This document shows positions 6,414 to 47,366 of a stretch of DNA of 64,000 nt, piece after piece. How positions within the stretch are numbered: the first letter of the stretch is position 1; every line of letters begins with the position of its first letter. Source of the stretch: Puniceibacterium sediminis (GTDB lineage Bacteria > Pseudomonadota > Alphaproteobacteria > Rhodobacterales > Rhodobacteraceae); assembly GCF_900188035.1 (NCBI RefSeq), contig NZ_FZNN01000001.1, positions 1 to 64,000 of the forward strand. The letters are read 5' to 3'. The position numbers and the translations under genes are program-made. Below the pieces are notes generated by a model that did no database searches, was not told the origin of the DNA, and saw only the letters and a program-made list of their open reading frames with translations.

Positions 6414-6490
6414 GGTCCTGTAGCTCAACTGGATAGAGCACCTGACTTCTAATCAGGATGTTGGGGGTTCGAGTCCTCCCGGGATCGCCA
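6414..6490 (+). tRNA. tRNA-Arg (anticodon TCT), CCA encoded
   Basis: The cloverleaf can be drawn base by base. The acceptor arm GGTCCTG (6414-6420) pairs with CGGGATC with two wobble pairs. The D-arm stems are GCTC/GAGC. The anticodon stem CCTGA/TCAGG holds the loop CTTCTAA, so the anticodon is TCT. The T-arm is GGGGG/CCTCC with loop TTCGAGT. Discriminator G is followed by an encoded CCA at 6488-6490. It reads AGA and AGG, codons rare in this GC-rich genome. No integrase gene or att duplication is seen beside it. Confidence 0.95.
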
Positions 6491-11351: not shown

Positions 11352-11386
11352 AGCGAACAGCAGGCCCGGAATCAAGCGCGCAGCGC

Positions 11387-11571
11387 GCCGGGCCAGCGCC
11401 GGACCGCCGTCGCACCAAAGGTGCGCCACTCTGCATCTTCTCGCCTTTGGCGAGGCGGTCTGGCGCTTTTGTGAAGTCAGCGCATAGCCATGCTCAACGA
11501 ATGACCTCACAGCCATAAAGCGCCCCGCTCAACCGGGGCAGCGCCCTCCCGCGGTCCGGCGCTGGCCCGGC
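11387..11571. repeat. Short element with terminal inverted repeats, copy A (MITE-like)
   Basis: A perfect 21-bp inverted repeat bounds this 185-bp segment: 11387-11407 (starting GCCGGGCCAGCGCC) and 11551-11571 (ending GGCGCTGGCCCGGC). Inside are two small hairpins (11411-11425 and 11440-11454), a degenerate third copy of the arm at 11454-11467, and a 57-nt box (11475-11531) that recurs at 46729-46785 with 46 of 57 positions identical and no gaps in my hand alignment. Homology with copy B also extends left of the arm (11364-11377). No transposase gene is seen in it. It lies between the convergent BKACE and RND genes. Confidence 0.75.
11395..11470 (+). terminator. Branched hairpin plus TTTT, likely end of the pob/pca transcript
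   Basis: The arm at 11395-11408 (AGCGCCGGACCGCC) can pair with 11454-11467 (one mismatch), enclosing two 6-bp hairpins, CGCACC-AAA-GGTGCG and CTCGCC-TTT-GGCGAG. TTTT follows immediately (11467-11470). It lies 44 bp after the BKACE stop codon, so a transcription terminator is a reasonable reading. The left arm is shared with the element's terminal inverted repeat and could pair there instead. Confidence 0.55.
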
Positions 11572-11600: not shown

Positions 11601-11651
11601 CCATACCGCGAGCCATACGGTTTCCATACCAAAACCATACGCTTGCCATAC
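11601..11651 (+). repeat. CCATAC array, five copies phased at 11-12 bp
   Basis: CCATAC occurs at 11601, 11613, 11624, 11635 and 11646, with steps of 12, 11, 11 and 11 bp, so the copies lie on nearly one face of the helix. The bases between copies vary. A second array of the same motif, strand and spacing lies at 47200-47238, and the first stretch of both reads CCATACGGTTTCCATAC. No coding frame explains the pattern. The array sits between the BKACE gene and the RND gene, 16 bp beyond the RND stop codon. Confidence 0.75.
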
Positions 11652-11666: not shown

Positions 11667-14600
11667 TCAGACCGCCGTCGCGTCGCGCAATTCGGCTTGC
11701 AGCCGCGCCGTCTCTTCCGCCTTGGGTCTGGAAAATCCGGCCAGCAGCAGATAGGCCACCGGCGTCAGGTAAAGCGTTGAAATCGTGGCCAGACCCAGCC
11801 CCCCGACGATCACCCATCCCAGCGCCTCGCGCGCCTCGGCCCCCGCACCAGACGACAGGATCAGCGGCACACCCCCCAGAACGGTCGAGATCATCGTCAT
11901 CATCACAGGCCGCAGCCGGATGGTCGACGCATCAAATATCGCATCACGCACAGAAGCGCCTTTGTCCCTGAGTTGATTGGCAAATTCCACGATCAGGATG
12001 CCATTCTTGGCCATGATCCCGATCAGCATCACCAGCCCGATCTGGCTATAGACATTCAGGCTCATCCCGGAAAACGCCAGCGCAAAGGCGGCACAGCCCA
12101 GCCCCAGCGGCACCGTCGCCATCACCACGATGGCCGAGATGAAGCTCTCGAACTGCGCCGCAAGTACCAGAAAAACCACGAGAATCGCAAAGCCAAAGGT
12201 CATCATCAACCCACCCGCCGTCTGGTCCAGCGTCGCTGCCTCGGCCAGTGGCACGATGCGGTTTTCCTCGGCCAGAACCTCACCCCCCAGCGTCTGAACC
12301 TGCGCCAGCGCCTCGCCCAATGCCAGCTCGGGCGTCAGCCCCGCAGTGATCTCGACCGAGCGGTTCTGCCCCTCGCGGCTCAGCTCGGGGGCGATGGCGC
12401 GTTCCTCAAGTCGCACAAAACTCGACATCGGCACCATCTGCCCGTCGCCCGTCTGCACAAAGACGTTTTCAAGGTCGCCGGGGTCGTTCACCGGGTCAGT
12501 GGTCGACAGCATCTGCACATCATAGCTCTTGTCCTGCACAAACACCGTACCAATGCTGCGCCCTTCAAGTGCGGCGCGCAGGGCGTCGCCCAAGCCACTG
12601 ATATCAATGCCAAGATCGGATGCGCGGGTGCGGTCTATCTCGATGAACAACTGCGGCTGCGTGGTTTCATATTCCAGCCGAACCTGACCAAACGCGGGGT
12701 TTTCCTGCATCCGTTCCACCAGCTTTTGCGACACCTCGGCCAGTTGCGCATAGCTGTCGCCGGTCAACGCAAATGTCAGCCCGCGACCCGCCCCGCGAAT
12801 GCCGAGGCTGTTGGGCTGAATGGCAAAGGCGCGCACGCCGATGATGCCGCGCAGCTTGCCGTTGATCTCGCCCACGATCTCGGCCTGTCCGCGTGTGCGT
12901 TCATCCCAGGGGGCCAGCGCCATCACCATGAAACCACCGTTGTTCGCACCGAAACCGGCAATGGCGAACACATTCCGGATGTCTCCGCTGTCAACCAGCG
13001 GCTGCACGGCACGTTCGATTTCCTGCATCTTGGAGGTTGTATAATTCAGCGAAACGCCCTGCGGCGCGCTGACCCGGAGCAGGGCGATGGCGCGGTCCTC
13101 GGGCGGGGTCAGTTCCTGCCGGATGCCGCTGCCAACGAACAACGCCGTCACCGCGAACAGCGCCGCCGCCAGCACGATCACCAAGGGCACGGCCAGCGCG
13201 CCCTTCAGCGTCACCGCGTAAAACCCGGCCAGCCGGTTGCCCAGCCAAATCATCGGCCCGCGTGGGTTTTTTGCCGGTTCGGCGGTCAACAGGCGGCTTG
13301 CCAACACCGGGCACAGGGTCAGCGCGACGACCGATGACAGCGACACCGCGATGGCAAGGGTAAAGCCGAATTCGCGGAACAGCCCACCCGCCTGACCCGG
13401 CAGAAAGGACAGCGGGATGAACACCGCCGCAAGCGTCGCGGTGGTGGTGACGACGGCAAAGAACACCTGCTGCGTGCCGATCACCGCCGCCGCGCGCGGG
13501 CCCATCCCGGCGGCGCGCTGGCGCACGATGTTTTCCAGCACCACGATGGCATCGTCCACCACCATGCCCGTCGCCAGAACCAGCGCCAGAAGGGTCAGGA
13601 TGTTGACGGAAAAGCCAACCATGTAGATCGCCGCCAGCGTGCCGATCAGTGAGACGGGCAGGGTGAGCGTGGGGATCAGCGTGGCGCTGACATTGCGCAG
13701 GAACAGGAAAATCACCACGACCACGATGGCCACGGCAAGGGCCAGCGTCCAGAGCACCTCCTTGATGGATCCGTTGATGAACACCGCATCATCCGAAGTG
13801 ACAAAGATGTTCACATCCTGTGGCAAGGTCTGGGCAAGCTGCGCCACCACCTGATGGACCGAGGCCGAGATTTCCAGCGTGTTTGACGTCGCCTGACGGA
13901 TCACGCCCAGACCCAGCCCGGTTTGACCGTTGGCGCGCAGGATGGTTTCGTTCGGGGCGGGGCCAAGGGTGACCGAAGCGACATCGCCAAGGATCACATC
14001 GTCCTTGATTTTCAGCGCCTCAAAGTCCGCCGGGGTGCTGACCGCCGCCGTGGTGCGCACGTTGATCGACTGCCGGTCGCCGGTCAGGTCCCCGGCTGGC
14101 GCGTCAAAGGCGATTGTCCCCAAGGCATTGCGCAAATCGGCCAGGGTCAGGCCGCGGCTGGCCAGTTGCATCTGGTCGATGTCGACGCGAAAGATCGGGT
14201 CGCGGTCGCCGTAGATTTGCAGATCCGCCACCCCGTTGATGGAAATCAGCCGGTCCTCGACCCGGTCCTGCACGATCTGGGTCAGCTCCTGCGGCGACCG
14301 GCTGGCCGAGGTGACGGCAACCCGGATCACCGGTTGGGCATTGGCGTCGGCCTTGACGATCTGGGGCTGGTCGGCGTCATCGGGCAGGGCGTTGGCGATC
14401 CGCGCCACCGCATCGCGGGTGTCGGTTGCGGCGACGTCAATGTCGACGTCATCGTTGAATTCCAGCGTCACGCGGCTGCGCCCGAAACGCGAGTTGGACG
14501 AGATGCTGCGCACCCCGGCGAGGCGGCCCACCGCGCCCTCGACGCGGGCGGTGATTTCCTGATCCACGGTTTCGGCCGATGCGCCGTCAAATTGGGTGGT

Positions 14601-14768
14601 CACGGTGATGACCGGGCGGTCCACGTCGGGCAATTCGCGGATTTCGACGCCGAAAAGTGCCGCGATCCCGGCAATCACGATCAGTGCGTTCAGCACAAAG
14701 GCAAGGATCGGCCGCTGTACGAATAGCGCCGTGCCTGATGTCTTCTCGGGTGCCGGGGTGTTGCTCAT
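11667..14768 (-). CDS. RND-family multidrug efflux permease (AcrB/MexB type)
   Basis: 1033 residues, a full-length inner-membrane RND pump that exports drugs or lipophilic compounds in exchange for protons. There is one N-terminal TM helix (about 17-40), then a large periplasmic porter domain. The central TM bundle includes GMVVDDAIVVLENI, with the paired Asp of the proton relay, and a second periplasmic domain and C-terminal TM bundle follow. Its start lies 1 bp from the adaptor's stop, so the two are one operon (adaptor first). No TolC-like gene is adjacent. Substrate unknown. Confidence 0.93.
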   Translation of the reverse strand: MSNTPAPEKTSGTALFVQRPILAFVLNALIVIAGIAALFGVEIRELPDVDRPVITVTTQFDGASAETVDQEITARVEGAVGRLAGVRSISSNSRFGRSRVTLEFNDDVDIDVAATDTRDAVARIANALPDDADQPQIVKADANAQPVIRVAVTSASRSPQELTQIVQDRVEDRLISINGVADLQIYGDRDPIFRVDIDQMQLASRGLTLADLRNALGTIAFDAPAGDLTGDRQSINVRTTAAVSTPADFEALKIKDDVILGDVASVTLGPAPNETILRANGQTGLGLGVIRQATSNTLEISASVHQVVAQLAQTLPQDVNIFVTSDDAVFINGSIKEVLWTLALAVAIVVVVIFLFLRNVSATLIPTLTLPVSLIGTLAAIYMVGFSVNILTLLALVLATGMVVDDAIVVLENIVRQRAAGMGPRAAAVIGTQQVFFAVVTTTATLAAVFIPLSFLPGQAGGLFREFGFTLAIAVSLSSVVALTLCPVLASRLLTAEPAKNPRGPMIWLGNRLAGFYAVTLKGALAVPLVIVLAAALFAVTALFVGSGIRQELTPPEDRAIALLRVSAPQGVSLNYTTSKMQEIERAVQPLVDSGDIRNVFAIAGFGANNGGFMVMALAPWDERTRGQAEIVGEINGKLRGIIGVRAFAIQPNSLGIRGAGRGLTFALTGDSYAQLAEVSQKLVERMQENPAFGQVRLEYETTQPQLFIEIDRTRASDLGIDISGLGDALRAALEGRSIGTVFVQDKSYDVQMLSTTDPVNDPGDLENVFVQTGDGQMVPMSSFVRLEERAIAPELSREGQNRSVEITAGLTPELALGEALAQVQTLGGEVLAEENRIVPLAEAATLDQTAGGLMMTFGFAILVVFLVLAAQFESFISAIVVMATVPLGLGCAAFALAFSGMSLNVYSQIGLVMLIGIMAKNGILIVEFANQLRDKGASVRDAIFDASTIRLRPVMMTMISTVLGGVPLILSSGAGAEAREALGWVIVGGLGLATISTLYLTPVAYLLLAGFSRPKAEETARLQAELRDATAV

Positions 14769-27515: not shown

Positions 27516-27533
27516 AACAGCGATGGGTAACAT

Positions 27534-27671
27534 ATTCTCAGGGCGGGGCGAAATTCCCCACCGGCGGTAAGCAGTATCAACTGCAAGCCCGCGAGCGCCT
27601 TCCTATTGGAAGGGTCAAGCAGATCAGGTGTAATTCCTGAGCCGACGGTTAAAGTCCGGATGAAAGAGAAT
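27534..27671 (+). ncRNA. FMN riboswitch (RFN element) upstream of ribH
   Basis: Closing stem P1 is ATTCTC (27534-27539) with GAGAAT (27666-27671). Between them are the conserved RFN blocks AGGGCGGGGCGAAATTCCCC, then ACCGGCGGTA, AGCCCGCGAGCG, CAGATC, and CCGACGGTTAAAGTCCGGATG. Downstream, GTGATC (27709-27714) can pair with GATCAC (27743-27748), which overlaps the end of the AAGGAG ribosome binding site (27738-27743). FMN could therefore shut off translation of ribH. The switch mechanism is inferred; riboswitch identity is firm. Confidence 0.95.
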
Positions 27672-27749
27672 GCGCCTCTGATTCACATCCAGTGGAGAGG
27701 GCTGGCGCGTGATCGCCTTGGGTGAAGTGTCACTAAAAAGGAGATCACT

Positions 27750-46651: not shown

Positions 46652-46685
46652 GATATCAGTCCCCGCCCGGAATAAAGCCGACGGC

Positions 46686-46825
46686 GCCGGGCAGCGCCAG
46701 CCCGTCCCCTGGGCTGGCGCTTGGGTACTGTCGGCGCATTGCCATGATCGAAAACTGACCTTGCAGCCATAAAGCGCCTCGCTCACCAGTTGTGAACGCT
46801 ATCCAACGGGCAGGCGCTGCCCGGC
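46686..46825. repeat. Short element with terminal inverted repeats, copy B (MITE-like)
   Basis: A perfect 13-bp inverted repeat, GCCGGGCAGCGCC (46686-46698) and GGCGCTGCCCGGC (46813-46825), extends inward to about 20 bp with one mismatch. Inside are an alternative perfect 10-bp hairpin, GCGCCAGCCC (46694-46703) with GGGCTGGCGC (46711-46720), followed by TTGGG, and the 57-nt box 46729-46785 shared with copy A. The sequence left of the arm (46665-46678) also matches copy A (13 of 14). No transposase is encoded. It lies between the DUF2513 and YrhK genes. Confidence 0.75.
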
Positions 46826-46880
46826 TCCGCATCCGCAGATGGCGCCAATCGGGTTTCAAACTCAGACAGAGGAACTGCTG

Positions 46881-47159: not shown

Positions 47160-47199
47160 GCGCGCGCCGCGTTAACGCTCGCTCTGCCAGACGTCGGAG

Positions 47200-47238
47200 C
47201 CATACGGTTTCCATACGCACTCCATACGGCTTCCATAT
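47200..47238 (+). repeat. CCATAC array, four copies phased at exactly 11 bp
   Basis: CCATAC starts at 47200, 47211 and 47222, and CCATAT at 47233, all steps 11 bp. The first 17 bases are the same as in the array at 11613. It lies 129 bp upstream of the pheT ATG and 41 bp after the YrhK gene, in the pheT leader or promoter region. Same strand as the array at 11601-11651. Confidence 0.75.
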
Positions 47239-47366
47239 CGGCCAAAACCCTTGTTAACCGGGGCCATCCCCCCGATTCGGGGCAGTGGTTAACGCGCACC
47301 GCCTCTTTCCCCCCGGACTCCGATCCGCTATGGGGGGTGCAACACGCAATTAACGGGTTGAGACCG

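Follow-up and report, generated by a model that had tools for sequence, protein, structure and literature searches.

Two intergenic regions within 64,000 nucleotides of the Puniceibacterium sediminis genome carry rows of the motif CCATAC repeated at about one turn of the DNA helix, which raises the question of what reads such rows and to what end. The whole stretch analysed here, called the window, is C45:1-64000 of a source genome (G000) of 4,642,053 bases in 69 contigs. Our answer, to which we assign a probability of roughly 0.7, is that an autoregulated RHH protein may load row-wise onto one face of the DNA at spaced stations, where it would serve to organise the chromosome and not to control promoters. 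Outside the window lie the gene of this candidate binder, the other 60 of 62 arrays and the changes of motif from species to species.

Both window arrays described in the initial annotation have exactly the positions and steps given there (Table 1). The window contained 7 pairs matching CCATAYN{4,7}CCATAY, whereas 100 shuffles that preserved dinucleotides had 0.03 on average, and single CCATAC hexamers were not enriched (16 against 14.2 expected). Since lone copies occur at chance frequency, the signal lies in the phasing. Rfam gave no match at either window array.

Table 1 Arrays and other features (positions are those of the window unless a contig is named)
Feature	Position	Strand	Remarks
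Array 1	11601-11651	+	Five CCATAC at 11601, 11613, 11624, 11635 and 11646 (steps 12, 11, 11, 11); convergent intergenic region, ~15 bp from the stop codon of the gene at 11667-14768
Gene beside array 1	11667-14768	-	Presumably an RND efflux pump gene (name by sequence reading)
Array 2	47200-47238	+	CCATAC at 47200, 47211 and 47222, CCATAT at 47233; the pheT-like gene lies downstream
Gene downstream of array 2	start 47367		Presumably pheT (name by sequence reading)
TTAAC sites	47171-47355		Four sites around array 2, ahead of the pheT-like gene, likewise in G001; we take them to resemble CtrA half-sites
Inverted-repeat element, copy 1	11360-11570		~74% identity to copy 2 over 117 bp
Inverted-repeat element, copy 2	46660-46830
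FMN riboswitch	27530-27675		RF00050, 118.5 bits
tRNA-Arg gene	6414-6490		Anticodon tct
RHH protein gene	G000:C43:78299-78772		Outside the window; Pfam BrnA_antitoxin family

The same phasing recurred throughout the source genome. Pair and triple patterns matched 231 and 164 times, against 1 and 0 matches for the reversed-pattern control, and a four-copy pattern that allowed 3 mismatches gave 124 matches against 12. Phased arrays therefore stand far above shuffles and reversed controls in window and genome alike, which was the comparison with chance that the initial annotation had proposed. Its remark that both window arrays lie on the plus strand describes a coincidence, because the four-copy matches divide genome-wide into 60 forward and 64 reverse. 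Among the matches listed, we counted at least 62 arrays of at least four copies each, copies with one mismatch at the ends included; 10 had 4 copies, 49 had 5, 2 had 6 and 1 had 7. Consecutive copies were separated by steps of 11 bp in 228 cases, 12 bp in 13 and 10 bp in 1. The unit, derived from 228 copies, is CCATACG followed by 4 bp: positions 1-5 are conserved at 99-100%, C6 at 93% and G7 at 90%, 97% of units have A or T at position 10, and the remaining positions are free. CAG often stands before the first copy, and GCCGTTTT often comes after the last; beyond ~10 bp, a by-eye comparison of the array flanks revealed nothing in common. Recent duplication of the copies is unlikely given that the spacers vary. 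Arrays also keep their distance from each other: in a test that covered 55 of these 62 arrays, spread over 13 contigs, only 3 of 42 within-contig gaps were shorter than 15 kb where 11.4 were expected, and 0 of 5000 random placements reached 3.

An inverted-repeat element precedes both window arrays, as had been pointed out earlier, and the two signals had been suggested to belong together. The first part of that claim stands and the functional pairing does not: a copy of the element lies within 500 bp of only 6 of the 62 arrays (besides the two in the window, further copies occur near some other arrays), and pieces of it are present in two same-genus genomes (G002 and G003) that have no arrays. 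We thus discarded the element as a partner of the arrays; it is an independent repeat family that is unrelated to them.

The arrays have a patchy distribution among relatives. Across 120 genomes, G000 included, they were found in number in three, namely G000, a second member of the genus (G001) and a member of another genus (G053), and six further genomes had one or two stray matches; G002 and G003, which are good assemblies from the same genus, had no arrays. A strict triple pattern was found in 10 of 394 family members, again including G000, with the reversed control matching once each in two of these ten (G156 and G354). Together with G001, these ten make 11 CCATAC carriers in total. The unit in G354 is mostly CCATACC, and the 17 and 26 matches of the reversed-pattern control in that genome most likely come from the arrays themselves. 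Where arrays are shared, their places are kept: 17 of 21 examined G001 arrays lie in the same neighbourhood and orientation as in G000, and for 13 of these 17 the offsets differ by less than about 200 bp. At the locus of array 2, an array with matching place and orientation occurs in G001 but in neither G002 nor G003. Arrays are thus conserved at orthologous loci of one same-genus genome, and the earlier reading, repeated binding of a protein along a single DNA face, having survived this comparison and the one with chance, is still the best available.

A candidate for this protein came from the arrays themselves. In G000, G053 and G156, an array lies 55-77 bp from the start of a gene for a small protein, which made that protein stand out. 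All four proteins scanned matched Pfam BrnA_antitoxin (PF14384) with scores of 49.5, 41.4, 60.8 and 59.1 bits, the gathering cut-off being 26.1, and the proteins have N- and C-terminal parts beyond the Pfam match. No NCBIfam model scored above its cut-off, phmmer against the PDB gave no useful match, and Foldseek found no PDB match at E <= 0.001; the AlphaFold monomer has helices at 68-77 and 81-97 and no strand. The gene for this RHH protein is encoded in all 11 CCATAC-array genomes against 17 of 49 others tested, and a search of the array-free G002 and G003 gave no match to it. We assembled 102 relatives from the best 80 of 164 genes in a scan of a contig collection and 22 earlier genes, three of which are identical to kept ones. 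By record title, the best 80 of 164 all belong to Rhodobacteraceae or Rhodobacterales except one titled only 'bacterium', and the nearest to the G000 protein among the loci listed is from Puniceibacterium antarcticum (82%). Three genomes have two RHH paralogues, one with R61 and a GTRCAC motif and one with K61 and TATGG (residues and motif classes are described below); in these pairs, L242/L247 of Octadecabacter ascidiaceicola, L241/L246 and L245/L254, the self-arrays differ.

Phased motifs upstream of the RHH gene proved to be widespread, and their spelling varied. At least two exact GTATGG (the complement of CCATAC) at an 11-bp step precede the gene in 10 of 11 carriers, and the eleventh, G419, has GTATGC followed by GTATGG. 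Several genomes without CCATAC arrays have other phased motifs in the same place, namely ATGCACA in G036, GTGCACA in G015, GTGCACC in G022 and G042 (the latter by eye), GTCGG in G039 and TCATAAC in G005. Over all 102 upstream regions, a lag of 11 was the best self-match lag in 76, compared to 60 of 267 upstream regions of other genes, a control set that may include regions sharing an array. The mean best 33-bp self-match was 21.5 at lag 11, 18.05 at lag 22 and 13.5-14.9 at other lags. A fixed rule with six motif classes labelled 77 of the 102 RHH upstream regions against 9 of 267 controls, and 25 of the 102 genes carried no label; the classes were defined after inspection of the upstream regions, so that the genome searches below are the independent test. 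In an earlier set of 30 loci, L210, L228 and L230-L235 fell outside the parsed upstream regions, and L210 was read by eye. A further motif class may be represented by an AGAAA-containing phased stretch upstream of L296, one of two loci (with L301) in which strand residue 65 is E or D.

We also found TTAACC or GGTTAA within 120 bp upstream of 55 of 102 RHH genes against 10 of 184 other genes, a count that covered the parsed loci of L206-L229 and L236-L315. TTAACC clusters ~40-55 bp ahead of the RHH start and presumably resembles a CtrA half-site. Its presence in about half of the family hints at cell-cycle control. Near the arrays themselves it was unconvincing as a signal: 48 array regions had 9 occurrences (0.88/kb) and 70 other regions had 7 (0.52/kb). 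No sigma-70-like promoter was found upstream of the RHH gene.

The spelling of the motif is largely predicted by three amino acids of the predicted strand. Alignment columns 61 and 65 have the most excess mutual information with motif class, and residue 63 has the second highest z among the 16 columns listed. In known RHH proteins, alternate strand positions form the face that touches DNA, and 61, 63 and 65 fit this alternation. The TATGG/TCTGG class has K61-T63 in 33 of 34 cases (the exception, L274, has S61), the GTRCAC class R61-T63-R65 in 19 of 19, the ATRCAC class R61-T63 plus A65, S65 or M65 in 12 of 12, the TCTTCC class N63 in 6 of 6 and the GTACAKA class P61 in 5 of 6 (the exception, L267, has R61); L267 and L274 are thus the code-breakers. 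Labelled genes with K or R at residue 61 and a GG or CAC motif pair K with GG and R with CAC in every one of 64 cases (61 of 61 once duplicates are removed), and R or A/S/M at residue 65 matches GTRCAC or ATRCAC in 31 of 31. On a tree built without the strand columns, the best topology requires 11 changes for residue 61 and 11 for the motif. Well-supported branches yielded three independent pairs, all concordant (sign test 0.25), so this formal phylogenetic test is low in power.

If the gene-side motif is the word that each protein reads, then the rest of the genome should be dotted with that same word. RTRCAC triples were found in 10 of 10 chosen R61 genomes and in 0 of 6 others, with no match in the reversed control; the 3 to 49 matches per genome include GTGCAC palindromes counted on both strands (G042). 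Likewise, all 7 genomes examined from the TCTTCC and TCTGG classes had GTCTKSC triples (2 to 11 matches each) and 0 of 5 others did, the reversed control matching once in each of two K-T genomes. Spelling follows the protein here too: the five N63 genomes have GTCTT almost throughout, and the two K-T genomes have GTCTG. Of 6 genomes picked for the array at their RHH gene, 5 had GTACAKA triples; of 5 others, one did (G448, an R61 genome, with a single match). Within the four P61 genomes, three had 2 to 10 matches and G463 had none, and the genomes of the two code-breakers L274 (S61) and L267 (R61) had 10 and 3. Covariation and genome-wide prediction together lend strong support to the predicted binding of the RHH protein to the arrays.

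What such binding might be for is suggested by where the arrays lie, which we assessed using a home-made gene caller based on codon usage. In G000, 57 of the 62 arrays are between two called genes, 4 are inside a called gene and 1 is at a contig edge. By type of region, 36 are tandem, 13 convergent and 8 divergent, compared to 47, 13 and 26 for control intergenic regions of at least 70 bp from the same loci; if anything, arrays are underrepresented in divergent, promoter-bearing regions. Minus-strand genes to the right of an array end close to it, with the stop codon within 30 bp in 18 of 25 cases. Some neighbourhoods recur between genomes. An array lies between leuC- and leuD-like genes in two genera (G000 and G053), and three genera have one ahead of a sulfotransferase-like gene. 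Around an argG-like gene, the arrays of G053, G167 and G186 fall between the same two genes; in G000 the array is ~1.2 kb away, past the second of the two. We take these gene names from sequence reading, as presumptive labels.

On a larger scale, the array matches of G053 and G354 are all on the largest contig, C1, which is chromosome-sized in both. The 38 arrays of G354 have a minimum gap of 15.1 kb (P 0.001), and their overall evenness is not significant (CV P 0.09); the 14 arrays of G053 are clustered and not even (CV 1.39). With ori placed by parS at 3.24 Mb of a 3.33-Mb contig in G053 and near 2.40 Mb of 3.54 Mb in G354, the terminus quarter contains 0 of 14 arrays in the former (KS P 0.03) and 10 of 38 in the latter (KS P 0.77). 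Avoidance of the terminus, seen in G053 and absent from G354, was accordingly dropped as a general rule. By hand count, about 24 arrays in G354 point towards ori and 14 away from it.

The mechanism we propose has four steps. Strand residues 61, 63 and 65 would recognise a core of 6-7 bp in every 11-bp unit, in which case several molecules, probably dimers, would align on one face of the helix, and several units in a row would form a cooperative station of high specificity. The array upstream of the protein's own gene, spelled like the others, would provide autoregulation, and the protein very likely controls its own level in this way. The dispersed stations, which number from a handful (strict pattern) to about 60 (G000) per genome and are mostly intergenic, would organise or mark the chromosome, the protein acting as a nucleoid protein that bends, bridges or anchors DNA. 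Their intergenic placement, indifference to orientation and separation by at least 11-15 kb in G000 and G354 make chromosome organisation or marking the most likely use, and it is from this distribution, along with the precedent of CdbA described below, that we infer such a role. Lastly, comparison between genomes shows that the strand residues and the array motif have changed together several times within the Rhodobacteraceae.

Several known systems resemble parts of this scheme. MatP, SlmA and Noc use a few dozen short, strict sites dispersed over the chromosome for organisation and not for promoter control. The arrays are likewise short, strict and dispersed; the folds of MatP, SlmA and Noc differ from RHH, and the arrays have no consistent relation to the terminus between G053 and G354. 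A closer parallel, within the portions of its description drawn on here, is CdbA of Myxococcus xanthus, an RHH nucleoid protein that is also a c-di-GMP receptor and has over 500 sites on the chromosome, many of them intergenic, a direct-repeat motif one helical turn apart, minor effects on transcription and a role in chromosome organisation and segregation (PMC7156744). The array system shares with it an RHH protein, many dispersed sites (here predicted ones) and repeats one turn apart. The CdbA motif, according to the same portions, is present in 296 of 569 peaks and is weakly specific (PMC7156744). In contrast to that single weak direct repeat, the arrays consist of 3-7 strict copies at few stations, and they differ further from the CdbA system so described by the self-array at the gene and the switching of motif between species.

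In type II plasmid partition, as far as the excerpts of two accounts go, dimers of the RHH protein ParR occupy successive direct repeats of roughly one turn each, forming a helical row, parC may adjoin the promoter of the operon to which it belongs and cause repression there, and specificity varies by family (PMC5016525, PMC9426499). A row on direct repeats and a precedent for self-repression are therefore in common. Unlike the single centromere cluster of such systems, the arrays are short, many and dispersed over the chromosome, and no ParM-like motor gene was recognised beside the RHH gene among the called genes of G000, G053 and G156. The array system most likely works like CdbA and ParR/parC, but the RHH protein is, on the basis of the dispersed sites and of no motor gene being recognised, not ParR. 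Our searches of the open-licence literature yielded no description of these arrays, nor of the RHH protein as a chromosomal binder, which agrees with the statement in the initial annotation that no described alphaproteobacterial site with this pattern was known.

The distribution of arrays could also be explained if the RHH protein were an ordinary global transcription regulator, each array being an operator and the set a regulon. The self-array is placed like an operator, and arrays occur upstream of the pheT-like gene and at the leuC/leuD- and sulfotransferase-like genes mentioned above; tandem arrays, moreover, run in the same direction as the flanking genes in 24 cases and in the opposite direction in 12. 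This bias and the leuC/leuD placement make some regulation possible. A regulon as the whole explanation is nonetheless unlikely, because arrays favour convergent over divergent regions where other regions do the reverse, often sit hard against stop codons, and in G000 avoid each other beyond random expectation, and a regulon has no need for such spacing.

Two other explanations fare worse. Arrays might be selfish or mobile REP-like repeats, with the RHH protein as part of the mover or as a domesticated repressor, and their high copy number, intergenic placement, patchiness within the genus and traceless absence from the array 2 locus of G002 and G003 fit that idea. We consider it improbable: flanks beyond ~10 bp, compared by eye, are not shared, core and step are constant while spacers differ, positions are kept between G000 and G001, arrays are mutually avoiding, and no transposase was recognised by sequence reading among the called genes beside the RHH gene in G000, G053 and G156. 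Still harder to credit, to the point that we give it hardly any weight, is that the RHH protein is the BrnA antitoxin of a BrnT/BrnA pair and that the arrays are titration sites setting its free level. The Pfam match of the RHH part favours it, and BrnAT is reported, in the sections of the source relied on here, to bind its own promoter (PMC5086665); autoregulation would be expected of such a protein. Against it are the parts of the protein N- and C-terminal of the Pfam match and the lack of a visible toxin partner, as an approximate BrnT-like motif matched none of the 102 RHH loci. For BrnA, too, our searches of the open-licence literature brought up no chromosome-wide phased arrays.

Taken with our preferred reading of spaced stations for an autoregulated RHH protein, these data suggest that Rhodobacteraceae carry a chromosome-scale DNA-binding system whose protein matches the name of a toxin-antitoxin family and whose sites are easily missed because their spelling changes from species to species. 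The family offers a natural series of specificity switches in which the DNA word can largely be predicted from three amino acids. The idea of an RHH recognition code can thus be tested directly, and one may ask how dozens of sites come to change in concert. We suggest more tentatively, at somewhat less than even odds, that this is a chromosome-marking system of the whole family, with one self-regulated RHH protein per system and with arrays and protein respelled jointly many times. If true, it would provide a natural, readable code for RHH recognition and a bacterial counterpart of centromere or barcode systems that evolve rapidly, which could allow a cell to tell its own chromosome from incoming DNA.
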